This document shows positions 4,315 through 27,384 of a DNA stretch of 29,001 nucleotides, one piece after another. The stretch is from a virus. Under the pieces are notes generated by a model, which made no database searches, was not told the origin of the DNA, and worked only from the letters and a program-made list of their open reading frames with translations. Position 1 is the stretch's first letter. The number at the start of each line of letters is the position of its first letter. Location of the stretch: IMG/VR virus record IMGVR_UViG_3300025438_000098, positions 1-29,001 of that record. The stretch is one strand, 5' to 3'. Position numbers and translations under genes: made by a program.

Positions 4315-4357
4315 ACGAACCACCATATTGTTAATATATAACAATATGGTGGTTCGT
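4315..4357. repeat. Perfect 19-bp inverted repeat around a TATATA core and start codon
   Basis: The arms 4315-4333 and 4339-4357 are perfect reverse complements, with the 5-nt loop ATATA. The right arm holds the ATG (4346) of the homing endonuclease gene. The left arm holds its mirror-image ATG on the minus strand (4326), which reads only MVVRSNF before a stop. The centre TTAATATATAA matches the recurrent promoter-like box. The structure therefore duplicates promoter plus start codon in both directions. As RNA it would form a hairpin hiding the start; as DNA it could be a bidirectional promoter or an endonuclease/operator site. Confidence 0.9.
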
Positions 4358-6364
4358 AATATTATTAGTTTAGAAACAAAGGGTTGTCGTAAAAAGGCAT
4401 ATTATAAATCAATTGGATATGACATTTCAGGTGATTTCATTGATATAAAAATAGAACACATAACACCTGGGTCAAGACATCTAATAGATGTTCAGTGTGA
4501 TTATTGTGAGAGTGTATCCAATATAACCTGTAAAGAGTATTTCCGTAATATATCACTTGGTGGTAAATATTCATGTTCTAAGAAATGTGGATCAGAGAAG
4601 GCTAAGGAGAGTAATGTAGATAAATATGGTGTTGAGTATCCAATGATGTTGGATGAGGTACAAGGAAAGGCCAAGAAAACGAATTTGGAGAGATATGGTG
4701 TTGAGTTCTTACAACAATCTACTGAAATGAAGGAAAGGTCCAAGAAAACCCTTATGAGTAAATATGGTGTTGATCACATATCCAAATCAAAGATGTTTGG
4801 GGATAAATTCCGAAAAACTTGTATGGATAATCATGGTGTTGAATATCCAATGCAGTCAATTGATATACGTGAAAAGAGTAAGGTAACATTATTGAATAAT
4901 TATGGTGTTGATAACCCATCTAAATCGGATGTTATAAGGGATAGTGTTGTGAAAACTAATTTGGAGAGATATGGTGGTCATTATATGAAAACCGATGATG
5001 GGAAGGAACACCACATAAATTTGATGATGTCAAAGTATGGTGTTGATAATATATCCAAATTAGAAAACACAAAGGATAAAATTAAGAAAACGAATTTGGA
5101 GAGATATGGATATATCTACACTATGCAGAATAGTGATGTTAAAGAAAAGTCGAGAGAAACATGTATATTAAAGTATGGTGTTGATAACCCATCTAAATCA
5201 CCTGGTGTGAGAGATAAAGTTAAGAAAACAAATTTAAATAGATATGGTTCAGAACATTTTATGTCCTCAGATACCTTTCGTGATATTTCGAAGTCTACTA
5301 TGTTGGATAAATATGGAGATGTTAGTCCAACAATATCCGAATCACTTAGGATATCAAATTATAAAATGTGTAAAGATGTGGATTACCTATATTATGTTGG
5401 ATATTCTACATCAGTTTTTAAATGTGTTTCTGGTCACGATTTTGAAATAAAAACTGATAATTATCACACAAGAAATAAGGCGGGTGTACCATTATGTACC
5501 ATCTGTAACCCGATAGGTAATTCATCTTCAATAAAGGAGAAGGAGTTATGTGATTATGTGAGTTCAGTTTATTCCGGTGAAGTTATTCAATCATATCGTG
5601 ATGGTTTAGAAATAGATATTTACCTACCGGAACTTAAAATAGGTTTTGAGTTTAACGGATTATACTGGCATTCCGAGGAATATAAAAACAAGAATTATCA
5701 TTTAAATAAAACTAATCATTTTAAGGAAAGAGGAATTCGTATAATACATATATGGGAAGATGATTGGATACTGAAACGTGATATTATAGAGAGTCAGATA
5801 TCTAATTTGGTGGGACTAGTTAAAAACCGTGTATACGCTAGAAAATGTGAAGTTGTTATTCTAGACAATTGTTCTGATTTCTTAAATGTGAATCATGTAC
5901 AGGGTAAGGATAGAAGTGTTGTTAAGATGGGTTTGTTGTATAATTCAGAGTTGGTGTCAGTTATGACATTTAATAAATTAGAAGGTCGTAAGAAGTTACC
6001 TAATGGTGAGTGGAATTTGTCAAGGTTTTGTAATCTATTGAACCACTCAGTAGTTGGTGGATCATCTAAACTATTATCACATTTTATAAAGTATAATGAG
6101 GTATCTCGTGTTGTTAGTTACGCTGATGCTGATTGGTCTGTTGGGAATTTATATTTAATCTTGGGATTTTTGAATATTCTCGAATCTAAACCAGATTATA
6201 AATATGTTGTGTGTGGTGTTAGGAGACATAAACAGAATTATAAGAAGAAGAATCTTGGTATACAGGGTCAGTCAATAACTGAGAAACAACACATGGCATC
6301 TCTTGGATATTATCGGATATGGGATTGTGGTAAAATAAAATTTGAGAAAATAATAAACCTTTGA
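4346..6364 (+). CDS. Free-standing EDxHD (Vsr-fold) homing endonuclease with repeat array and C-terminal GNAT-like domain
   Basis: A 672-residue protein. The frame opens upstream with a TTG at 4328, but ATG 4346 lies at the usual distance from the TATATA core. Order of parts: a zinc-ribbon-like C51-x2-C54 with C77-x3-C81; eleven modules of about 24 residues centred on K/R-Y-G (residues about 93-325) that should contact DNA; a second CTIC pair; and the nuclease, with EIDIYLPELKIGFEFNGLYW, H442, a YHLNK stretch and EDDW (471-474). This is the signature of EDxHD homing endonucleases related to I-Bth0305I. The C-terminal 180 residues (ARKCEVV, NHVQGK, RFCN, VVGGSSKLL, SYADADWS) form a domain often attached to such enzymes, possibly GNAT-like. 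A paralogue lies at 22002-24041 and a truncated relative at 14954-15343. It is a selfish mobile gene next to gp55. Confidence 0.88.
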   Translation: MVVRNIISLETKGCRKKAYYKSIGYDISGDFIDIKIEHITPGSRHLIDVQCDYCESVSNITCKEYFRNISLGGKYSCSKKCGSEKAKESNVDKYGVEYPMMLDEVQGKAKKTNLERYGVEFLQQSTEMKERSKKTLMSKYGVDHISKSKMFGDKFRKTCMDNHGVEYPMQSIDIREKSKVTLLNNYGVDNPSKSDVIRDSVVKTNLERYGGHYMKTDDGKEHHINLMMSKYGVDNISKLENTKDKIKKTNLERYGYIYTMQNSDVKEKSRETCILKYGVDNPSKSPGVRDKVKKTNLNRYGSEHFMSSDTFRDISKSTMLDKYGDVSPTISESLRISNYKMCKDVDYLYYVGYSTSVFKCVSGHDFEIKTDNYHTRNKAGVPLCTICNPIGNSSSIKEKELCDYVSSVYSGEVIQSYRDGLEIDIYLPELKIGFEFNGLYWHSEEYKNKNYHLNKTNHFKERGIRIIHIWEDDWILKRDIIESQISNLVGLVKNRVYARKCEVVILDNCSDFLNVNHVQGKDRSVVKMGLLYNSELVSVMTFNKLEGRKKLPNGEWNLSRFCNLLNHSVVGGSSKLLSHFIKYNEVSRVVSYADADWSVGNLYLILGFLNILESKPDYKYVVCGVRRHKQNYKKKNLGIQGQSITEKQHMASLGYYRIWDCGKIKFEKIINL

Positions 6365-7682: not shown

Positions 7683-7736
7683 ACAACTTCTATAAACATT
7701 TGTATAATATGTTTATAGAAGGTGTATGAATAAAGT
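7672..7736. repeat. 28-bp-arm palindrome containing both divergent start codons
   Basis: Arms 7672-7699 and 7709-7736 are reverse complements with one mismatch (7686/7722), separated by 9 nt (TTGTATAAT). The gmd ATG (7726, +) and the small-ORF ATG (7682, -) are exact mirror positions. Each arm carries TATAAACAT and ends in the first codons, M-N-K. It is likely a bidirectional promoter formed by inverted duplication, or a regulatory hairpin covering the start codon. Confidence 0.9.
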
Positions 7737-8766
7737 CGCATTAATTACCGGTATTACCGGTCAGGACGGAAGTTACCTAAGTGAACTACTACTAGAGAAG
7801 GGATATGTTGTACATGGTATTAAAAGAAGAAGTTCTTCCTTCAATACTGAACGCATAGACCACATTTATGATGATGAGAAATATAAAGATAAATTCTTCT
7901 TACATTATGGTGATTTAACAGATTCAACCAACATAATAAGAATTGTACAAGAGGTTCAACCTGATGAGATATACAATTTGGGAGCTCAATCACATGTGAT
8001 GGTTTCTTTTGAAACACCAGAATATACGGCTAATTCGGATGCAATTGGTCCTTTGAGAATACTCGAAGCTATTAAAATTCTGAAATTAGAGGAAAAGACG
8101 AAATTTTACCAAGCATCTACCTCTGAGATGTTCGGATTAGTACAGGAAGTTCCACAAACAGAAACAACACCATTCTATCCAAGAAGTCCTTATGGATGTG
8201 CTAAGTTATACGCACATTGGATAACAGTAAATTATAGAGAGTCTTATGGTATGTTTGCTTGTTCTGGTATTCTATTCAATCACGAGAGTCCAGTTAGAGG
8301 AGAAACATTCGTAACTCGTAAAATAACTCAGGCAGTTGCTAAAATAAAGCTTGGTTTACAGGATAAGTTGTATATTGGTAATCTTGATGCTGAAAGGGAT
8401 TGGGGACATGCCAAGGATTATGTCCGTGGTATGTGGATGATGTTACAACAAGATAAACCTGGTGATTATGTTTTATCAACTGGTAAAAAGATTTCGGTTC
8501 GTACATTCTGTGAAATGTCATTTCGTGAAATTGGAGTTGAGATTAACTGGGTTGGTGAGGGTGTTCATGAGGTTGGTGTTGATTCAGAAACACAAATGGT
8601 CTTGGTTGAAATTAACTCTAAATATTTCAGACCAACTGAAGTATGTGAGTTATTAGGTGATTCTACAAAAGCTCGTGATGAACTTGGTTGGGAACCTGAG
8701 TGTAGTGTTGTGCAATTGTGTAGTGAGATGGTTAAATATGATATAAATAAATTATCTAGAGTATAA
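7726..8766 (+). CDS. gmd: GDP-mannose 4,6-dehydratase
   Basis: Converts GDP-D-mannose to GDP-4-keto-6-deoxymannose, the first step of GDP-L-fucose synthesis, using tightly bound NADP. It is a short-chain dehydrogenase of the extended type. The Rossmann motif is [11 protein letters not shown] (8-18). [15 protein letters not shown] near residue 35 is typical of Gmd. The catalytic set is STSEMFG (131-137) with Y156-x3-K160 in SPYGCAK, followed by [18 protein letters not shown]. At 346 aa it is full length. Its stop is directly followed by the fcl start, so the two are translated from one message. The start codon lies in a long palindrome. Phage copies may serve glycosylation of phage or host surface molecules; the acceptor is unknown. 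Confidence 0.96.
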
Positions 8767-9702
8767 ATGACAGTTATTAAACCTTATTCTAAAATCTTAG
8801 TATGTGGTGGTAATGGAATGGTTGGATTATCCATAATCAGAGAACTCAAATCAAGAGGATATAACAATATCATATCACCGACTAGTACAGAACTAGATAT
8901 GACAAGTCAATTTGGAGTAGATGGTTTCTTCAAGGAGCACAAACCAGTTTTCGTATTTATGGCAGCTGCAAAGGTTGGTGGTATACAGGCTAATAATACA
9001 CAGAAGGGTGAATTTATGTACAAAAATCTGATGATTCAGACTAACATAATACACTCATCTTATGTTTATGGTGTTGAGAAATTATTATTTCTGGGTTCAT
9101 CTTGTATTTATCCAAGAATGAGTCAACAACCAATCAAAGAAGAGTATTTAATGACCGGTGAATTAGAACCGACTAATGATTCTTACGCCTTATCAAAATT
9201 ATCGGGTATTAAGATGTGTCAGTCGTATAATGAACAGTATGGAACAAACTTCATATCTGTCATACCAACTAATTTATATGGTCCAAATGATAATTTCGAT
9301 TTGAATTCTTCACATGTATTACCAGCTTTGATACGTAAAGTACACGAGGCTAAAGAAAAAAATGATAACAATGTTGTTGTTTGGGGTTCGGGTAATCCAA
9401 AAAGAGAATTTCTGTATGTTGACGATTTGGCCGAGGCTTGTATAGACTTATTTGAGAATTATAGTGGTAATGACGTAATTAACATAGGTACCGGTGAAGA
9501 TATATCGATAAAAGATCTTGTATATCTTATACAGTATGTTGTTGGTTATACTTGTAACGTAGAATTCGATTCAAGTAAGCCAGATGGTACTCCGCGTAAA
9601 TTACTGGATGTATCAAGAGCTACCGAACTTGGTTGGACGTATAAGACTTCACTAAGAGATGGTATAGATAAAGCGTATAAACATTTTTTAGAGAATGAAT
9701 AA
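8767..9702 (+). CDS. fcl: GDP-L-fucose synthase
   Basis: An epimerase/reductase that turns the Gmd product into GDP-L-fucose with NADPH. The N-terminal nucleotide-binding motif is GGNGMVG (14-20). AAAKVGGIQANNTQ, LGSSCIYP (serine and cysteine of the active site) and Y140-x3-K144 (SYALSKLSG) are diagnostic, as is PTNLYGPNDNFD. At 311 aa it is full length. The ATG follows the gmd stop without a gap, and the last bases overlap the next ORF. With gmd it forms a complete two-step pathway from GDP-mannose. No fucosyltransferase is visible in the window. Confidence 0.95.
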   Translation: MTVIKPYSKILVCGGNGMVGLSIIRELKSRGYNNIISPTSTELDMTSQFGVDGFFKEHKPVFVFMAAAKVGGIQANNTQKGEFMYKNLMIQTNIIHSSYVYGVEKLLFLGSSCIYPRMSQQPIKEEYLMTGELEPTNDSYALSKLSGIKMCQSYNEQYGTNFISVIPTNLYGPNDNFDLNSSHVLPALIRKVHEAKEKNDNNVVVWGSGNPKREFLYVDDLAEACIDLFENYSGNDVINIGTGEDISIKDLVYLIQYVVGYTCNVEFDSSKPDGTPRKLLDVSRATELGWTYKTSLRDGIDKAYKHFLENE

Positions 9703-11281: not shown

Positions 11282-11431
11282 ATGAAAGCTAAAGAAGTAA
11301 TGGATAAATATAGCATAACCCGGAGAACATTACATAATTGGGTTAAGAAGGGTTTGATTGATTTCGAAAAAACACCTTCCGGTAGGTATATATACCTAGA
11401 TAAAAAAGATAATGATAATGAAAGAGTGTAG
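11282..11431 (+). CDS. Small MerR-type helix-turn-helix protein, 49 aa
   Basis: A 49-residue ORF with MKAKEVMDKYSITRRTLHNW followed by VKKGLIDFEKTPSGRYIYL. The pattern (a first helix ending in V-x-x-x-Y-x-I-x-x-x-T-L-x-x-W, then K-G-L-I and S-G-R-Y-I-Y) is the winged HTH of MerR and excisionase-type proteins. It is tightly spaced behind a TATATA box. Its last 20 nt overlap the HNH endonuclease gene in another frame, so it may be translationally coupled to it. It could give DNA-binding specificity to the endonuclease or act as a small regulator; neither is shown. Confidence 0.65.
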   Translation: MKAKEVMDKYSITRRTLHNWVKKGLIDFEKTPSGRYIYLDKKDNDNERV

Positions 11432-12134
11432 TAAATGTAATATAGAAAGAGATATTAGTATGTTCTATAAGGATAAATACTCACCTGATGGACATCGGAC
11501 GAATTGTAAAGAATGCTCAAAGAAATATCGTGAAGAATCGAAAGAACTAAGTAAAGCTTATAGGGAGAGGAATAAAGAATCTCACCAAAAAAGAAATAGT
11601 GAATATCAAAAAATGAATAAAGAAATAATTTCCATTAAGAAAAGGGAATACTATTTAAAGAATAAAGAATCAATACTTGATAAACGTAAACAATATTATG
11701 AAGATAATCGTGAAACTAAAATGAAATATCAGAGGGATTATCAACAAAATAATAAAGAGAAGAGAAATAAATACCTTCAGGAAAGAAGGGAAAGTGATCC
11801 ACTTTTCAAATTAACTACTAATGTTCGAAACCTTATTAATAATTCGTTCTATGAAAACGGATATACTAAGAGTTCGAGAACACAGGAAATACTTGGATGT
11901 TCATATAGTGAATTTAAAAAGTATCTCGAATATAAATTTGAGTATTGGATGGATTGGGGTAATCGTGGTATCTATGATGGTGAATTGTGTTCTGGTTGGG
12001 ATATTGACCATATAACACCATTATCGATTTGTGAGAATGTGGAAGAACTATTGAAGTTAAACCACTACACGAACCTACAACCATTGTGTAGTAAAACAAA
12101 CAGAGATATAAAGAAAAATAATTTAATATACTAA
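11412..12134 (+). CDS. HNH homing endonuclease
   Basis: A 240-residue free-standing endonuclease. The N-terminal zinc finger has C6-x2-C9 and C32-x2-C35. The middle (about 35-130) is a highly basic helical stretch with repeated Y-x-x-x-N-K-E units, likely lying along DNA. Then come LFKLTTNVRNLINNSF and SSRTQEILGCSYSEFKKYLEYKF, and the C-terminal HNH catalytic module GWDIDHITPLS with LNHYTNLQPLCSKTNRDIKK. The start is either ATG 11412 or ATG 11418. It ends 1 nt before the portal ATG, so it is inserted directly upstream of gene 20, probably using its promoter region. Confidence 0.88.
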   Translation: MIMKECSKCNIERDISMFYKDKYSPDGHRTNCKECSKKYREESKELSKAYRERNKESHQKRNSEYQKMNKEIISIKKREYYLKNKESILDKRKQYYEDNRETKMKYQRDYQQNNKEKRNKYLQERRESDPLFKLTTNVRNLINNSFYENGYTKSSRTQEILGCSYSEFKKYLEYKFEYWMDWGNRGIYDGELCSGWDIDHITPLSICENVEELLKLNHYTNLQPLCSKTNRDIKKNNLIY

Positions 12135-15483: not shown

Positions 15484-16926
15484 TTAATATCCCGAAAATA
15501 TATCCATGATAACCGTCAATCTCTTGGTTATTTCTGGAAGTCCAAGTGGTTGAATAATACTATTTATGGGTCTAAGAATACATTTGTAAAATTGTGTATC
15601 ATAATCAATCTCAGGAGCAAGTTCCATAGGAAACGAACCTCTCTGAAAGGCAAAGACTGGTGATATCCTAGTATCTTTACAGTAGAAGTATTTTATCTTA
15701 ACACCAGACTTCAAGAATTCATACTTAGATTGTAAATCTTTACGATTATGAAGAAGATGATTGTGATAGGCAGCAGCCTTGACGGCAAAGTGAGCTCCAC
15801 TAACAAATACTAACCTATCTTTCTCCTCTAAGACTTTCTCTTCATATTTATTAACTGATGTCTGCATAGAAATTGAATCCATATCAGAAAGCTCAAACTC
15901 TCTTCTCAAATCCTTAACTTGTTTCAATAGGTTTTTGATATTGAAATCATCAGGGTGAGCAAATATGTACTTGATAATATCTACAATTTTCTCACGAGCA
16001 AACAATGGTGTTGATGATCTTACGAGTTCAACACCTTTTGGGAATATATAATCGAGTCTTTCATAATCAATCCCATCTTCATGTAATATATGTTGGATAT
16101 ATTTCTTCTTAGCTATATTAACAATCGATTCGGATATTCTCTCTAACTCGAAATCTTCTTTATTAGTAACCCCATATTCACCAGCGTATGTATCAAGACA
16201 ATCTTTGAAATATTTAGCATATCTAAAATGGTCAAATCCTTGTATAAAGTCTAACTCACATGACCAGTTCCAGTATATTTTATTTGATATTTCTGGTAGT
16301 ATCTTACTATTAAAGGTTCTATCTTTTACAAAAGCTCCATCAACAACAATTCTATCGTAACCATTTCCAATCTCTTCTAATATTGGTAATATATCAAATT
16401 TACCAAAATTTTCTAAATCTTCGATGTATATCGACTTAACATTAGGGTTATTTAATTTTGTTTCTTGTCTATGTTCTAATATAAGAACTTTGCTAGTCAT
16501 TCCTTCCAATCGTTCTTTATCTAGGAAGTTATTTTTCCACTGACATTTATTCATAACTGGTTCGAATGAAACGAATAGTGAATCTGTATCAGCATATATA
16601 GATACGTTCTCATCTTTTGATATTGTTTTGATTTCTTTCAAACCCATTATTTTATGTAGTTCGAAGTCTAGATGCCATAAATTGCTCCAGTATTCGACAT
16701 TATCTGTATCCATCCTCTTAGTTAATTCTCGACCCTGTGCTGTTATACTACCTGCTACGTGCTCATTGAACAGTATAAAGTAGGGAGTCGCGAGCGCTCC
16801 GTAGCTGCCGTTCAGTACTAACTTTAGTGCGAGTTGTAAACTATTATAATAGTCAACTTCGGCTTTGAGTTTGGATGCTTTTTCTTTTAGTATTTGTAAT
16901 TTATTTATTTTCTCCGCTTTTGTCAT
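15484..16926 (-). CDS. 43: DNA polymerase, family B, C-terminal half only (T4 gp43-like)
   Basis: 480 residues covering fingers end, palm and thumb of a T4-type replicative polymerase. Motif B is K35-L-V-L-N-G-S-Y-G43. Motif C is YADTDSLFVSF, with catalytic aspartates at 113 and 115. A KxY-like KKKY lies at 273-276. The C-terminus, LTVIMDIFSGY, resembles the clamp-binding end of gp43 (T4-type L-F-D-M-F-D-F). The exonuclease domain and motif A, roughly 520 residues in T4, are absent: upstream DNA holds an 80-bp gap and then a plus-strand GIY-YIG gene. A natural start (MTKAEKINKLQILKE) precedes motif B by 34 residues. The break lies in the fingers domain, as in the two-piece gp43 of some Aeromonas T4-like phages. 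The other piece must lie elsewhere. Confidence 0.92.
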   Translation of the reverse strand: MTKAEKINKLQILKEKASKLKAEVDYYNSLQLALKLVLNGSYGALATPYFILFNEHVAGSITAQGRELTKRMDTDNVEYWSNLWHLDFELHKIMGLKEIKTISKDENVSIYADTDSLFVSFEPVMNKCQWKNNFLDKERLEGMTSKVLILEHRQETKLNNPNVKSIYIEDLENFGKFDILPILEEIGNGYDRIVVDGAFVKDRTFNSKILPEISNKIYWNWSCELDFIQGFDHFRYAKYFKDCLDTYAGEYGVTNKEDFELERISESIVNIAKKKYIQHILHEDGIDYERLDYIFPKGVELVRSSTPLFAREKIVDIIKYIFAHPDDFNIKNLLKQVKDLRREFELSDMDSISMQTSVNKYEEKVLEEKDRLVFVSGAHFAVKAAAYHNHLLHNRKDLQSKYEFLKSGVKIKYFYCKDTRISPVFAFQRGSFPMELAPEIDYDTQFYKCILRPINSIIQPLGLPEITKRLTVIMDIFSGY

Positions 16927-17005: not shown

Positions 17006-17767
17006 ATGTCTGATTATTATGTTTATGTTTATATGAATCCGTTTGTGTGTTGTAATAGAACATTTGGTAACATTTCATATATGTATGAGCCCTTTTATAT
17101 AGGTAAGGGAAAGGATAGTAGATACATCTCACACCTCAGAAATTATAAACTAAAAAAGAATGATAGTTTCTTATCTAGAAAGATAAATAAGATATTAAAG
17201 AATGGGTGTAGTCCATATATTACTAAGTTGTATGAGAATCTGACCGAGAAAGAGGCTCATTCTATTGAGATTGAGTTGATAGATATTATTGGTCGAAGGT
17301 GTGTTGGTAAGGGATCATTGGTTAATATAACCTGTGGTGGTGAGGGTATTTCGGGATTTAAGCATAGTGATGAGACTCGTGAGAAGATGTCGTTGAAGGG
17401 TGAAAAACATCCAAATTGGGGCAAACCACGTAGTAAGGAAACAAGAAATAAAATATCTAAAGCTCTAACATTGAATAATCCAATGCATAACCCATTGGTG
17501 GTTGAGAAGGTTCGTTTACAGAATTTGGGTAAAACACCATGGAATAAGGGATTGTCAGCTAGTGATGTTTCTAAGAAGAGGATGAGTGAGAGTAAGCAAA
17601 AGTATGTAAATATACGAGGTGTGTCTAAAAAAACTGATGAGGAATTTACTTTTGGTAATACCAATGAGGTCATGTATTTCCTATCCAGAACACATAGAAT
17701 GGTTATGATTTATTTCGATAGGGGTGAATCGAAAGATTATTGGTGGTCATTTGATAAACTCAGGTAA
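17006..17767 (+). CDS. GIY-YIG homing endonuclease with NUMOD3 motifs
   Basis: 253 residues. The N-terminal catalytic domain has YVYVYMNP (the GIY strand) and FYIGKGKDSRY (YIG at 31-33), followed by H43 and R45 (ISHLRN) and a glutamate in HSIEIELIDIIGRR near residue 88. The C-terminal half carries NUMOD3-type DNA-binding motifs: GFKHSDETREKMSLKGEKHPNWGKPRSKETRNKIS and GKTPWNKGLSASDVSKKRMSES. The last part ends WWSFDKLR, in the style of a NUMOD1-like tail. It lies between the polymerase C-terminal piece (divergent) and the protease-scaffold gene, at the place where the missing polymerase half would be expected. Confidence 0.92.
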   Translation: MSDYYVYVYMNPFVCCNRTFGNISYMYEPFYIGKGKDSRYISHLRNYKLKKNDSFLSRKINKILKNGCSPYITKLYENLTEKEAHSIEIELIDIIGRRCVGKGSLVNITCGGEGISGFKHSDETREKMSLKGEKHPNWGKPRSKETRNKISKALTLNNPMHNPLVVEKVRLQNLGKTPWNKGLSASDVSKKRMSESKQKYVNIRGVSKKTDEEFTFGNTNEVMYFLSRTHRMVMIYFDRGESKDYWWSFDKLR

Positions 17768-20056: not shown

Positions 20057-21796
20057 ATGTCACACATTAGAATAGACAAAAATAAAGCTGTCAAGAAATG
20101 GGGTCCAGTATTGGAAAACATGGGAGTTACTAATGAGGAAAGAGTTGATTGGTTATCAGAATATGCTGAATTTCACTCAATTAATGAGAACGCATACGTA
20201 AATGCTACAACAGCAGGTATGGGTCCCATCAATTCTCCTCAACCAGGTACACTTCCAGGACTTCTTGGTGGTGGAGCCGGATTTGGTGGTCAATCACAAC
20301 CAGGCGAATTGCGTATAGGATCAGGTGATCTTGGTCAAAACTTGCTACCAGTAGCAATGAAAATCGCAGCACAAACAATAGGTTTAGACCTAGTAGCTGT
20401 AAAACCTACTCCGGGTCCAAAAATCGACCTTCTTTATATTGATTTTCAATATGATGATTTGAGAGATGTTGGTGAAGACTCACGACCACAAGTATTTAAG
20501 TTCAATTCAACTGATACTGCTGCTTATACAGCAAACATCGCTGGACTTACTGCAGCTATCGCTGCAGGAACGGGAATAGTTGAAACATCAGGTGGTTTAT
20601 CTGGCGGACAAGTGTTCGTTAATATCACAACAGGTCTTACAACTTATGCTGAACCAGTAGGTGATAAAGAAAATATGTTAGAATTCTTAGGATTCTCTCG
20701 TGTAGATGGTCTTCCAATGTACAAAGCATGGAGACAAGCTAATTCAACTACTGCCCCAGGTGGTGGTGGTGCTGGTGGTAATGGTTACCCTTATGTATAT
20801 AACCAATTACAGAATACGTTCGGACCAACTCCGTCAATGAATGCTCAGTTGAGCGCTGGTGTATTTAGTGGAGGTGTAACTTATTCGCGTGATTCTGTTG
20901 GTATCGAATTGGTATCAGCTCTTGAAGATCACCTACCAGGGTTTTCTGCAAACTGGAACTCATCAAATTCGTCAGGTGATTACCCAATGGATAGAGATAT
21001 GGATGATAAAAGATACTCAGGTGTTATTGGTCCAAAAATTTCGTCAAAATCTGTAAAAGTAGGTACTATTGAAGTATCAACTGCTCTTAGAAGAACAGAG
21101 ATTGAAGATATTAAGGCTAACACAGGAATGGATATCGTTCAAAAAATGGAATCAATCTTGGTTAATGAATTATCTCAGGTAATTTCTAAACAAATTGTTT
21201 CAAGAATCTTTGAGTTAGGAGATGCTAACAGAGCTTCTGCACCACTTGGTGGAGTTGGTACTATTGTTGGACAAACTATTTTCGACCTTGACACTGCATA
21301 TGCAGCAGCAGGTATCGTTGGTGGTGAAACAACTCACGCAGTTCAAAGAAAACTGATCACTAAAATGCTTCACGCATCAAATTACCTTGCTACCGAAGGT
21401 CGTGTTGGTCCTGCACAGTTTGCAGTAACTAATGGAGGTTTGGCCGCATCACTTATGGATGTAGTTGGTTATACTGTTAATCCAGTAAAATCTAAGTTGA
21501 ATGGTCAGGGTCAATTGTACCCAGTAGGTCAAATTGGAGAAATTCAAATTTATGTTGACCCGTACATGAAGTACAATGATAACAGAATCGTTATTGGAAG
21601 AAAGAATAACCCAGATCAACCAGGTTTGATTTTTGTACCATATCTTATGGCACAGTCAATCTCTGTAATCTCTGAGGCAACCTTTGCTCCAAGAATGTTA
21701 CTTAGATCTCGTTACGCAATCGCAGACGTTGGGTTCTTCCCAGAGAAGCAGTATATGACTATCCGAGTTAAAGATACAGCAGTTCTTTTGAACTAA
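20057..21796 (+). CDS. 23: Major capsid protein (T4 gp23-like)
   Basis: 579 residues; builds the hexamers of the head. Family features: the N-terminal KAVKKWGPVLENMGVTNEERVDWLSEYAEFHS (compare T4 LLNKWKPLLEGEG), GDLGQNLLPVAMKIAAQTIGLDLVAVKPTPGPKIDLLYIDFQYDD, the mid-region ALRRTEIEDIKANTGMDIVQKMESILVNELSQVISKQIV, and the C-terminal IYVDPYMKYNDNRIVIGRK, FVPYLMAQSISVISEATFAPRMLLRSRYAIAD. T4 gp23 loses 65 N-terminal residues to gp21 at an (I/L)xE site. Here I42-N-E44 before N45 (and L-S-E at 33-35) fits, giving a shorter propeptide. Gly-rich stretches near residues 72-85 and 234-245 are probably surface loops. It is followed by a strong terminator. Confidence 0.96.
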   Translation: MSHIRIDKNKAVKKWGPVLENMGVTNEERVDWLSEYAEFHSINENAYVNATTAGMGPINSPQPGTLPGLLGGGAGFGGQSQPGELRIGSGDLGQNLLPVAMKIAAQTIGLDLVAVKPTPGPKIDLLYIDFQYDDLRDVGEDSRPQVFKFNSTDTAAYTANIAGLTAAIAAGTGIVETSGGLSGGQVFVNITTGLTTYAEPVGDKENMLEFLGFSRVDGLPMYKAWRQANSTTAPGGGGAGGNGYPYVYNQLQNTFGPTPSMNAQLSAGVFSGGVTYSRDSVGIELVSALEDHLPGFSANWNSSNSSGDYPMDRDMDDKRYSGVIGPKISSKSVKVGTIEVSTALRRTEIEDIKANTGMDIVQKMESILVNELSQVISKQIVSRIFELGDANRASAPLGGVGTIVGQTIFDLDTAYAAAGIVGGETTHAVQRKLITKMLHASNYLATEGRVGPAQFAVTNGGLAASLMDVVGYTVNPVKSKLNGQGQLYPVGQIGEIQIYVDPYMKYNDNRIVIGRKNNPDQPGLIFVPYLMAQSISVISEATFAPRMLLRSRYAIADVGFFPEKQYMTIRVKDTAVLLN

Positions 21797-22001: not shown

Positions 22002-24041
22002 ATGTTTGTTAAGAAAAGATTAGATATCATTACTGAAATATTGGATGGTAGTCCATCGAGAATGAGGGTGTGTTATTTTAAAAAGAACCATTTAAATATA
22101 TTGGAACAAATAGAATCTTTTTGTTCCAATATAGATGTATCTTTTAAGCAAATGATATGGCATTGGGTTAATGATTCATCATCATATTATAAGTGTGTGT
22201 GTGGTGGGTTTACAACTTTCAACAGGAACTGGTTGGATGGATATAGGGAAAATTGTTCACCTAAATGTGCCCAGGGAAAAAAGACCACGAAGGAGAAGAG
22301 GAAAAAGACCACAATTGAAAAATATGGTGTTGATAATATTGCTAAATTGTATAAAACTAAGAAAAAGCAAGCTATTACAAACCTCGAAAGATATGGATCA
22401 ACTTCCTCTTTTCAGAACGAGGCTGTTCGTTTAAAATATAGAAAAACTTGTTTGTATAGGTATGGTGTTGATCACTATTTCAAAACTGACGAATTTAAGG
22501 AAATCTCTAAGATTAGTAATTATGAGAAATATGGTGTATCACACTTTGTACAGAGTGATGAATATATAAAAAGGTCAGTTTATAGTAATAATGAGAAGTA
22601 TGGTCGGGATTGGTTTACACAAACGGAGGAGTATCTTATAAAAACCAGAAATACTAATAATGAAAAGTATGGATTTGATTCCTATGTTAATACGTCCGAA
22701 TATAAGTCCTTGTTGAAAAAGACTAATTTAGAGAAATATGGATCGGAATGGTATTTCCAATCCGATGAGTTTCGTAAATCCATTGAGGGTATAATGGTAG
22801 AAAAATATGGTGATGGGCATTATTCAAAGACACAAGAATATAAAGACCGTGTTAAGAAGACCAATGTAGAGAGGTATGGGTCCGAGTGGTATTTTCAATC
22901 TGATGGGTTTCGTGATTCGATTGAGGATATAATGGTTGAGAAGTATGGATCATCTCATTATTCAAAAACAAAGGAGTATAAGAATTTGTTAAATAGTGAT
23001 GTGTATGTTGAGAGGCGTTTATCACAGAGGGTTGGTCATTATAAAGAAATGGGATTTTCATTTATATCATCATCAGAAACACCAGGATTTGTTGATTTAT
23101 ATAGTGATGTTTGTGGTCATACTTTCTCCATACACCCAACAACACTAAAGCGTAGAATCGATGTTGGTTTGTGTGGGTGTGTTGTGTGTAACCCTTTGAA
23201 TAATGGTTCGGGTCAAGAAAAACGAATCGGTGAGTGGTTAGATACATTGGATATTGTTTATATTTCGAACGATAAGTCTATTATTCAGAATATGGAATTG
23301 GATATTTATATACCAAGTTTGAATTTAGCTATTGAATATAATGGACTTTATTGGCATTCTGATATTTATAAACATGTGAATTATCATCTAGAGAAAACTC
23401 AGAAATGTAATGATGTTGGGATTCATTTATTACATATTTGGGAGGATGATTGGTTATATAAGGAGAATATAGTTAAATCTATATTAATGAATTTTATGGG
23501 TTTGTCTAGTAATGTATTATATGCTAGAAAATGTACCATTTCGGAAGTGGTTGATAAGAAAATGGTTAATTTATTTTTCAATGAAAATCATATACAGGGT
23601 AAAACGAATTATAAAACCTCTATTGGATTATTTTATGGTGATGAGATGGTTTCCTGTATGTTGTTTCATAGTCCGAGGGGTGAACATGAACTCGTTAGGT
23701 TTTGTAATAAGAAATTTACATCTGTTGTTGGTGGAGCATCTCGACTATTTAAATATTATATAAATAATTTTGATATCAATCATATATCATCATTTGCGGA
23801 TATATCCATATTTAGTGGTGATTTGTATACCAAATTAAATTTTGAACTATCACATAGAACTAAACCAAATTATTGGTGGGTGGTTGATGGTATACGTAAA
23901 CATAGGTTTACTTATAATAAGAAGAAGTTGATTAAAGAGGGATTTGATCCATTGAAAACCGAGGTTGGAATTATGCACGGTCGTGGATATTATCGAGTAT
24001 ATGGGTGTGGTTTGGATAAATATATATGGAATCATAAATGA
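22002..24041 (+). CDS. Second large EDxHD (Vsr-fold) homing endonuclease with repeat array
   Basis: 679 residues, a diverged paralogue of the 4346-6364 gene with the same architecture. The N-terminal part has CVCGG and NCSPKCA as a zinc ribbon. Ten modules centred on E/Y-K/R-Y-G follow (residues about 106-330: EKYGVDNIA, ERYGSTSSF, YRYGVDHYF and so on). Then come a CGCVVCNP pair, the nuclease MELDIYIPSLNLAIEYNGLYWHSD with YHLEKT and LLHIWEDDW, and the C-terminal GNAT-like domain (YARKCTI, NHIQGKTN, RFCNKKF, VVGGASRLF, YYRVYGCG). It lies downstream of the capsid gene terminator with its own TATATA box. The recognition modules differ in the variable positions from the first copy, so a different target is expected. 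Confidence 0.88.
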   Translation: MFVKKRLDIITEILDGSPSRMRVCYFKKNHLNILEQIESFCSNIDVSFKQMIWHWVNDSSSYYKCVCGGFTTFNRNWLDGYRENCSPKCAQGKKTTKEKRKKTTIEKYGVDNIAKLYKTKKKQAITNLERYGSTSSFQNEAVRLKYRKTCLYRYGVDHYFKTDEFKEISKISNYEKYGVSHFVQSDEYIKRSVYSNNEKYGRDWFTQTEEYLIKTRNTNNEKYGFDSYVNTSEYKSLLKKTNLEKYGSEWYFQSDEFRKSIEGIMVEKYGDGHYSKTQEYKDRVKKTNVERYGSEWYFQSDGFRDSIEDIMVEKYGSSHYSKTKEYKNLLNSDVYVERRLSQRVGHYKEMGFSFISSSETPGFVDLYSDVCGHTFSIHPTTLKRRIDVGLCGCVVCNPLNNGSGQEKRIGEWLDTLDIVYISNDKSIIQNMELDIYIPSLNLAIEYNGLYWHSDIYKHVNYHLEKTQKCNDVGIHLLHIWEDDWLYKENIVKSILMNFMGLSSNVLYARKCTISEVVDKKMVNLFFNENHIQGKTNYKTSIGLFYGDEMVSCMLFHSPRGEHELVRFCNKKFTSVVGGASRLFKYYINNFDINHISSFADISIFSGDLYTKLNFELSHRTKPNYWWVVDGIRKHRFTYNKKKLIKEGFDPLKTEVGIMHGRGYYRVYGCGLDKYIWNHK

Positions 24042-25794: not shown

Positions 25795-26319
25795 CTAAAC
25801 TAGTTTAGTTGCTTGTGCATAGATACATCTCATACACACATCATAATTTGAATATCCTAACTTCTTAGTTGGGTTATCTTTAATAATCAAATCCATTTTA
25901 AGAGATTTACCAAGAGTTTTGGCGGCAAAGTATCTGTGGTGTCCGTCTTCTAAGAAAAACCCTGTACCATACTCATTCTTTTCATAGGATACATCGATAG
26001 GCTCTGTTAAATCAATTGTGAGAGAGAATTCCTTCTCGGTCAATCCCTTGTGTTCAATTTCATGTTTAACGTTCTCCAAATCAGTATGCCATTTTATTTT
26101 CAATTCACCTGGTGTGATAGTATCTAGTTCTTCATTGAAACCGTATGCTAATTTATCAAACATATTGGTGGGTAATCCACCACCACGTAAAAATTCCTCA
26201 TCAGAATCAAACTTCTTAACAAAGTTTATTACCTCATCTGTTAAATCGATATTAATACATTCGTGTGATATCTTATGATATCTGTCTGTGAATTGTTCGA
26301 ATACTTTCAGATGTTTCAT
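25795..26319 (-). CDS. Hypothetical protein with ParB/sulfiredoxin-like motif
   Basis: 174 residues starting MKHLKVFEQFTDR, another capsid-targeting-like N-terminus. Near the C-terminus, IDLTEPIDVSYEKNEYGTGF is followed by LEDGHHRYFAAKTLGKSLKMDLII. The D125-G-H-H-R129 motif followed by a small-residue helix is the nucleotide-binding hallmark of the ParB/sulfiredoxin fold, which includes CTPases and some nucleases. Cysteines near the end (DVCMRCIYAQ) may bind metal. The ATG overlaps the stop of the upstream 197-aa gene by 4 nt, so the two form an operon read toward the peptidase cluster. The exact role is unknown. Confidence 0.7.
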   Translation of the reverse strand: MKHLKVFEQFTDRYHKISHECINIDLTDEVINFVKKFDSDEEFLRGGGLPTNMFDKLAYGFNEELDTITPGELKIKWHTDLENVKHEIEHKGLTEKEFSLTIDLTEPIDVSYEKNEYGTGFFLEDGHHRYFAAKTLGKSLKMDLIIKDNPTKKLGYSNYDVCMRCIYAQATKLV

Positions 26320-26909
26320 AAGTTATTTATCTGTTTTTGGACAATCGGTATTAGGTCTATGTTATCTGTGTCCATAAGGTAGTCAAATATAGAATTAACA
26401 AAGTCTTTATCCTTTATCTTTTCATCATCTAACATCTCAATGAAATCACCCTCTGGTAATACGTGATATAACCTACCATTTACTTTATTCGATAGAAAAC
26501 TTTTGAACTTGGTTAATCCTTTATCATGTCCAATGAATTTACCACTCTTTGGATTTTTATCTGTCCCACACCAACTACGTACTTTGAGTTCTTGTTCGTG
26601 TGTCATTCCTTCCACACGTATTTTATATAGTGGTCGGCTTATGAGTTCCATTTCCCAGTAGTGTGTGATATCTGTTCTTTGTTTATCAACCTTTAATATC
26701 ATTTTCTTTTCCCAGAAATATTCACCTTCTTTCTCATCATAATCCTTGTCATGGTGTTCGTATGTTATGTAATTATCATCTTCATCGATTTTCTTCTTGT
26801 TTTTAAACCATCTAGCAAAAAATTCATCGAGTGGTATACCAAGTTCTCTCTCAACCCATTCTTCATTACTTTCGGTGATAAATTCATTATATCTCTGGAT
26901 TTTCTTCAT
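26316..26909 (-). CDS. Hypothetical protein with T4 internal-protein-like N-terminus
   Basis: 197 residues starting MKKIQRYNEFITESNEEW. This is the closest match in the window to the T4 internal-protein start (MKTYQEFIAE), with I-T-E at residues 11-13 as a fitting prohead protease site. The remainder is charged and has no recognised domain: WVERELGIPLDEFFARWFKNKKK, then an acidic EHHDKDYDEKEGEYFWEKK, MTHEQELKVRSWCGT, KFKSFLSNKVNGRLYHVLPEGDFIEML. It is preceded 3 nt upstream by a TTTTATATATAG box on its own strand. A packaged, injected protein is a reasonable hypothesis, without direct proof. Confidence 0.65.
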   Translation of the reverse strand: MKKIQRYNEFITESNEEWVERELGIPLDEFFARWFKNKKKIDEDDNYITYEHHDKDYDEKEGEYFWEKKMILKVDKQRTDITHYWEMELISRPLYKIRVEGMTHEQELKVRSWCGTDKNPKSGKFIGHDKGLTKFKSFLSNKVNGRLYHVLPEGDFIEMLDDEKIKDKDFVNSIFDYLMDTDNIDLIPIVQKQINNL

Positions 26910-26973: not shown

Positions 26974-27341
26974 GGGTCCGTATGGCATTTGACTTATAAG
27001 GAGATTCGTTAACACGCAAGTATCGGTTTGATTAATACCGATTTATCAAAAATCTATCAAAACTGTAAACGGAAACGTTACAAACGAAGTAGGTACTAGT
27101 GAAGATTTAGTAGCTGTCCTACAAAACAATATGCTCACGGTAAGAGAGCTGGAAGTAGCGTAAGTTAATTCTGAATTCGACCACTGAAATACAACAGTTA
27201 AAAATAGTGTTAGTTTTTGTTGGAGTTCTTTAAACACAAAGAAACCTACTATTTTGTTGAGTCAAGAAAAATTCAACTAAACTTGTGAATGAGTGATATC
27301 GTTCAATTATGAAGACGAGGGTTCGAGTCCCTCCGGATCCA
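26974..27341 (+). ncRNA. ssrA: Transfer-messenger RNA (tmRNA)
   Basis: A 368-nt RNA that rescues stalled ribosomes. The 5' GGGTCCG (26974-26980) pairs with 3' CGGATCC (27334-27340), with a G3-U70 wobble and A73, the alanine identity elements that all tmRNAs share. UGGCAUUUGAC follows as the reduced D-arm. The T-arm is GAGGG-TTCGAGT-CCCTC. CCA is not encoded. ATCGGT/ACCGAT (27022-27042) forms a PK1-type stem. The tag frame starts about GTA 27065, begins V-N-G-N-V-T-N-E, includes E-D-L-V-A, and stays open for 32 codons to TAA 27161; GTAGG/CCTAC (27089-27122) forms P5 around the middle. A TATATA box lies upstream and a terminator downstream. The unusually long tag frame is discussed under findings. 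Confidence 0.9.
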
Positions 27342-27345
27342 CATC

Positions 27346-27384
27346 AAATGGAAATCAGATAATATCTGGTTTCCATTTTTTTTT
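27346..27384 (+). terminator. Intrinsic terminator after the tmRNA
   Basis: AAATGGAAATCAG pairs with CTGGTTTCCATTT (one G-U pair) around a short AT loop, and is followed by a run of nine or so T. It starts 5 nt after the tmRNA 3' end. Confidence 0.92.

Follow-up and report, generated by a model that had tools for sequence, protein, structure and literature searches.

Close to the downstream end of the window – the whole 29,001-nucleotide stretch of viral DNA analysed here – lies a tmRNA (ssrA) gene (Table 1). The covariance model RF00023 matches positions 26974–27344 of the plus strand over its full length (model positions 1–374) at 52 bits, against a gathering cut-off of 47, and ARAGORN calls a tmRNA at 26974–27342, both in agreement with the first-pass annotation, which had placed such a gene at 26974–27341. 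The mature ends are set by the acceptor stem, and the CCA tail is incompletely encoded. The acceptor stem has 7 bp and includes a G3–U70 pair that is invariant in all 33 aligned tmRNAs; with A73 at 27341, the alanine identity elements are present. These elements, the T-arm and the PK1-like stem are thus all found in the sequence as originally described, and single-sequence folding of the RNA gives a z-score of −2.1. Of the two transcription signals proposed for the gene, its own terminator is borne out as a strong intrinsic one, while the promoter-like box occurs at chance level (2 found versus 2.0 expected). The motif TAnnTTTG, which we take to be the Bacteroidota −7 element, stands upstream of 39 of 55 family tmRNAs, compared with 5% in shuffles; the window carries only a one-mismatch form of it.

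Table 1. Features of the tmRNA gene and the capsid gene in the window (all on the plus strand).
Feature	Position	Strand	Evidence or remark
Major capsid protein	20057–21796	+	capsid search; upstream of tmRNA
tmRNA (ssrA) gene	26974–27341	+	RF00023, ARAGORN, 33-sequence alignment with covariation
Acceptor stem, 5' strand GGGTCCG	26974–26980	+	pairs with 27334–27340 (CGGATCC)
PK1-like hairpin stem ATCGG/CCGAT	27022–27042	+	sequence alignment
Resume-codon determinant TAAAC (T at −5, A at −4)	27066–27070	+	conserved in relatives
Tag frame, 30 codons GNVTNEVGTSEDLVAVLQNNMLTVRELEVA and TAA stop (27161–27163)	27071–27163	+	family conservation; indications of purifying selection on extension
Helix P5	27089–27122	+	inside tag frame, stop-free, encodes VGTSEDLVAVL and flanks; covarying stem, 96–97% of cells paired
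Second hairpin GCTC...GAGC	27133–27149	+	inside tag extension; covariation; dual-coding RNA/peptide
T-arm GAGGG-TTCGAGT-CCCTC	27317–27333	+	canonical in window
Intrinsic terminator	27346–27378	+	15 pairs then T-run; 1 found versus 0.0 expected

What sets this tmRNA apart is its tag frame. With the standard one-piece tmRNA (RF00023) it shares the acceptor stem with G3–U70, the T-arm, P2, PK1, P5, the resume context and a tag frame; however, the standard stop codon lies within P5 – a comparative study places it in the helix-5 loop (PMC1168896) – whereas in the window P5 is read through and the tag contains an extra hairpin. The stop begins 39 nt past the end of P5, so that a usual, albeit non-obligatory, tmRNA trait is absent. 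The open passage through P5 had been noticed from the outset, together with the stop at TAA 27161, and both hold; the proposed start at GTA 27065, giving 32 codons, does not. The window reads TAAAC followed by GGA, and this conserved context puts the resume codon at GGA 27071, leaving 30 codons. At the resume site, all 56 family sequences described below share A at −4 and −3 and carry T or C at −5, and the codon that follows starts with G, being mostly GGC or GGA but also GCA and GAC. The equivalent position in Escherichia coli, U85/A86, acts in setting the frame (PMC2481249).

Relatives were gathered by several routes. A capsid-protein search yielded 80 related loci in viral contigs; the tmRNA fell inside the fetched flank at 40 of them, and at 38 of these 40 it lay 1.6–6.7 kb downstream of the capsid gene, on the same strand. 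Whole-record RF00023 scans recovered part of the relatives' tmRNAs, and a DNA pattern built on the tag core found 79 stretches, 71 of them tag-bearing tmRNAs and 8 unrelated. Two further approaches gave little: blastn of the window tmRNA against phages returned partial matches only, in LR records, and the neighbouring protein (26316–26909), used as bait, recovered no relatives. After pattern, Rfam and blastn matches had been pooled and duplicates removed, the family comprised 56 distinct full-length sequences including the window, two of them from huge phages, LR756502 (642 kb) and LR745206 (635 kb), and the rest from viral contigs.

Across this family the long tag is a constant. The frame is open in 56/56 sequences, with 27 (14 sequences), 28 (1), 29 (31) or 30 residues (10) and 44 distinct peptides; it is closed by TAA in 47 cases and TAG in 9, and its last residue is always V or A (e.g. 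EVA, ATV, ELV, ELA) and never part of an AA ending. With neither alternative frame open in any family member, the long frame of the window is not a product of chance, and a short tag in another frame, the outcome against which the first reading had been staked, is not seen. The tag's most conserved part is the early resume context with the first 17 residues. Conservation of the tag core is partly built in by the search pattern, although the pattern does not dictate whether the frame is open, how long the tag is, where it stops or what the extension contains, and tags recovered independently of the pattern, through Rfam or blastn (loci L105, L121, L125, L008 and L009), concur. In the extension after P5, close pairs differ by 231 synonymous and 190 non-synonymous single changes, a synonymous share of 55% versus a neutral expectation of 23%; the pairs are non-independent, so the figure is indicative, but it points to purifying selection at the amino-acid level. 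In 8 phage records the tag peptide was found only at the tmRNA.

The same DNA is constrained as RNA. In an RNAalifold analysis of the 33-sequence alignment, 34 of 50 pairs show two-sided changes, and the covariation score of P5 and the extension hairpin was reached by none of 500 shuffles and also exceeds that of slid controls. Pair 170–184 of the extension hairpin, for instance, is A–U in 15 sequences, C–G in 10, U–A in 4 and mismatched in 4 (n = 33), the helix as a whole being 80.6% paired. Pairing is therefore kept in relatives rather than lost, and the tag DNA serves both as an RNA helix and as a template for the peptide. As for the peptide, AlphaFold2 modelled 42 tags as a single helix over residues 10–29 (mean pLDDT 73), so that reading through P5 and the second hairpin is predicted to yield a conserved helical segment, EDLVAALQNN..(V)xELxVA.

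Taken from comparative sequence analysis, the best explanation is that the locus very probably encodes a working tmRNA, conserved among these phages, whose dedicated tag of ~30 residues is added to nascent chains on stalled ribosomes. By analogy with what is known of tmRNA, the molecule would be alanylated, enter the stalled ribosome and release it, and the tag would consist of the alanine from charging followed by the 30 encoded residues. The phage tmRNA would thereby rescue ribosomes in infection and mark the chains with a phage-specific signal.

The main rival to a dedicated tag holds that ribosome rescue is the sole selected function, the long tag being a by-product of a rearrangement of P5 and the pseudoknot and the peptide irrelevant. 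Covariation of the helices inside the tag means that RNA structure accounts for some of the conservation, and an E. coli phage growth assay needs ribosome release alone, with no proper tag (PMC2481249). Yet the synonymous excess in the extension speaks for a selected peptide, as does the fact that all 56 sequences keep the reading frame, the place of the stop and a final V or A constant, every tag length being in frame, and we consider rescue as the only function unlikely.

It is far less probable still that the tmRNA is real but its tag short, with the frame upstream of a later resume codon purely structural. This reading comes from ARAGORN, which resumes at GTC 27116 and gives the window a 15-residue tag, VLQNNMLTVRELEVA, that shares frame and stop with the 30-codon tag but starts too late; it likewise gives 15 residues in two relatives. 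In three others, however, the same program gives 27–30 residues from the early resume codon, GTC 27116 falls within the P5 stem, and the early resume context belongs to the tag's most conserved part.

The T-loop is canonical in 9 of the 56 family sequences, including the window (TTCGAGT), and is not TTCGA in the other 47 (e.g. L009:2960–3341 and L143:1232–1611); most of the altered tmRNAs have the T-loop GGGCAGTAC with a 6-bp T-stem, and their D-loop differs too, with AGAATTGATT in place of GGCATTTGA. Function of the tRNA-like domain is accordingly not assured in most relatives. These changes probably explain why neither Rfam nor ARAGORN detects the LR756502 and LR745206 tmRNAs; that standard tools overlook such genes in huge phages (635–642 kb) implies that they are under-counted. 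The altered T-loops, and the precedent of mycobacteriophage DS6A with its tRNA-like-domain-only tmRNA (PMC4131195), might suggest that the phage RNA does no tagging and acts against host tmRNA instead, as its decoy or inhibitor, but a decoy needs no conserved tag, and the window, with its complete acceptor stem, G3–U70, canonical T-loop and intact, selected frame, makes this highly improbable.

The likely hosts offer the most direct comparison for a dedicated phage tag. Huge-phage genomes above 634 kb have Bacteroidetes as their predicted hosts (PMC7162821), and a tmRNA is present in 141 of 148 Bacteroidota genomes. Among 73 Bacteroidota loci examined, a tag was called in 70, of 9–10 residues with LAA or MAA ends (YALAA, YAMAA or YRLAA); one call of 15 residues has the standard 10-mer at its end. 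In one Bacteroidota genome, a second tmRNA-like locus (L410) with the tag GENNYALAA lacks an ARAGORN call. Host and phage share a resume context of the kind TAAA(C/T) before GGC, and the phage tag start, G-N/K-x-N, is Bacteroidota-like (host tags start, for example, with G-N-T or G-E-N), but the phage tags, at 27–30 residues, have neither the Y-A-L/M-A-A ending nor the stop in P5. The expectation that the phage tag would differ from host tags is thus borne out; across tmRNAs generally, the commonest tag length is 10 (PMC11915505).

Other phage tmRNAs, which were rightly said to be rare – 402 of 18,146 phage genomes (PMC9004378) and 79 of 97,179 unique tmRNA sequences (PMC11915505) – show how the long tag is distributed. 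The tmRNA and SmpB of huge phages have already been noted, some of these phages carrying both (PMC7162821). By the acceptor-stem rule, no tmRNA was found in the capsid flanks of LR756504, LR756500, PTm1 and Lak-B5; searching these four records in full gave three tmRNAs away from the capsid flank. Lak-B5 (DDEIEFRMAA) and LR756500 (GNNAEMRMAA) have host-like 10-mers, Bacillus phage G a tag of 13 residues, AKLNITNNELQVA, and LR756504 one of 24, DNVNSFEQSILNELFAPVEMAVAA, ending in AVAA. The tmRNA of LR756501 (735 kb), which has a group I intron at its T-loop (RF00028, 96 bits; L010:3069–3300), gives by hand reading a 33-residue tag unrelated in sequence to that of the window and ending in VEDLVLA. 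In capsid protein, the window shares 64% identity with LR745206 and LR756502, 49–50% with LR756501 and LR756504, and 26–35% with LR756500 and the Lak and Tenacibaculum phages; together with the tags, these values place long tags in the window's nearer relatives and host-like tags in more distant ones. Six contigs (L097–L102) whose tRNA-like-domain 3' end is identical to the window's have a tag of ~21–22 residues, GNVLNKMETLGLVRESEVTVA, hand-read from the resume context. The Melnitz-type two-piece phage tmRNA has, like the window's, been proposed to manage rescue or proteolysis in infection, but is set apart by its description as permuted, of alphaproteobacterial type and associated with a riboswitch (PMC9004378). 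Two crAss-like phages, cr50_1 (L208:984–1352) and cr60_1 (L209:969–1290), match the permuted model RF04321 at 60 and 40 bits, respectively (cut-off 47), with RAGATH RNAs near the matches.

Where might the tagged chains go? SmpB was found in 9 of 38 related records, among them each of the three huge phages tested, and ClpP in 11 of 38, including LR756502 (three) and LR745206 (two), these records being mostly fragments. SmpB, ClpP and a Clp ATPase occur together in LR756502 and LR745206, both of which have the long tag; the window itself is a 29 kb fragment. The ATPases of these two phages and of three long contigs contain GVGF or GLGF, presumably the ClpP-docking loop of ClpC-type enzymes, as well as a segment, EEAARLRDVE, that we read as UVR-like. 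Wherever the start lies in the fetched stretch, the ClpC-like proteins begin ~150 residues later than usual ClpC; in the ATPases L421, L424 and L425 of huge phages, what we take to be the usual N-terminal adaptor-binding domain is absent and the start is short and acidic. With NCBIfam models the phage ATPases score below the ClpB and ClpA cut-offs, and a ClpX-specific model found nothing over its cut-off, the ATPases recovered being of the ClpA/B/C class. LR756501 has an ATPase without the GVGF/GLGF loop and gave no ClpP match, so that a phage ClpP is not a prerequisite for a long tag.

The initial suggestion that the phage may tag stalled proteins differently, alter their proteolysis or supply rescue during takeover is plausible, and is strengthened by the SmpB, ClpP and ClpC-like unfoldase encoded in related phages. 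In clade members with all three, tagged products could be directed to phage-controlled proteolysis, instead of or besides host ClpXP; the tag may thus feed a phage ClpCP or avoid host ClpXP. A bolder form of this idea, which we put forward tentatively as possible though not probable, is that a clade of very large Bacteroidota phages runs a private trans-translation pathway, in which a phage-specific helical degron of 27–30 residues, written by the phage tmRNA, and phage SmpB would deliver chains to a phage N-domain-less ClpC–ClpP and not to host ClpXP. If so, it would be up to the phage which stalled products are degraded in the course of takeover. Our literature search for the ssrA tag with ClpC in Bacteroides found nothing.

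Few degradation signals are as well known as tmRNA tags, and tags that reach or exceed 20 residues have precedents, for example in mycobacteriophage Bxz1; length alone is therefore not new, but a conserved clade-wide tag is. The literature searched, with supplementary tables and subscription journals outside its scope, held no description of the one in this clade. Here, a phage clade appears to keep the tmRNA while swapping the host's degron of 9–10 residues with LAA or MAA ends for a conserved tag three times longer, which offers a clean natural experiment on the purpose of the tag and on whether phages rewire host proteolysis.

Elsewhere in the window, four long ORFs (4328–6364, 22002–24041, 11412–12134 and 17006–17767) look by eye like homing endonucleases and crowd the head-gene region, two of them with many repeated K-x-NxERYG units, and the DNA polymerase at 15484–16926 is represented by its C-terminal part only. 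Two adjacent ORFs within 7726–9702 resemble, again by eye, GDP-mannose dehydratase and GDP-fucose synthase, which suggests sugar modification by the phage.
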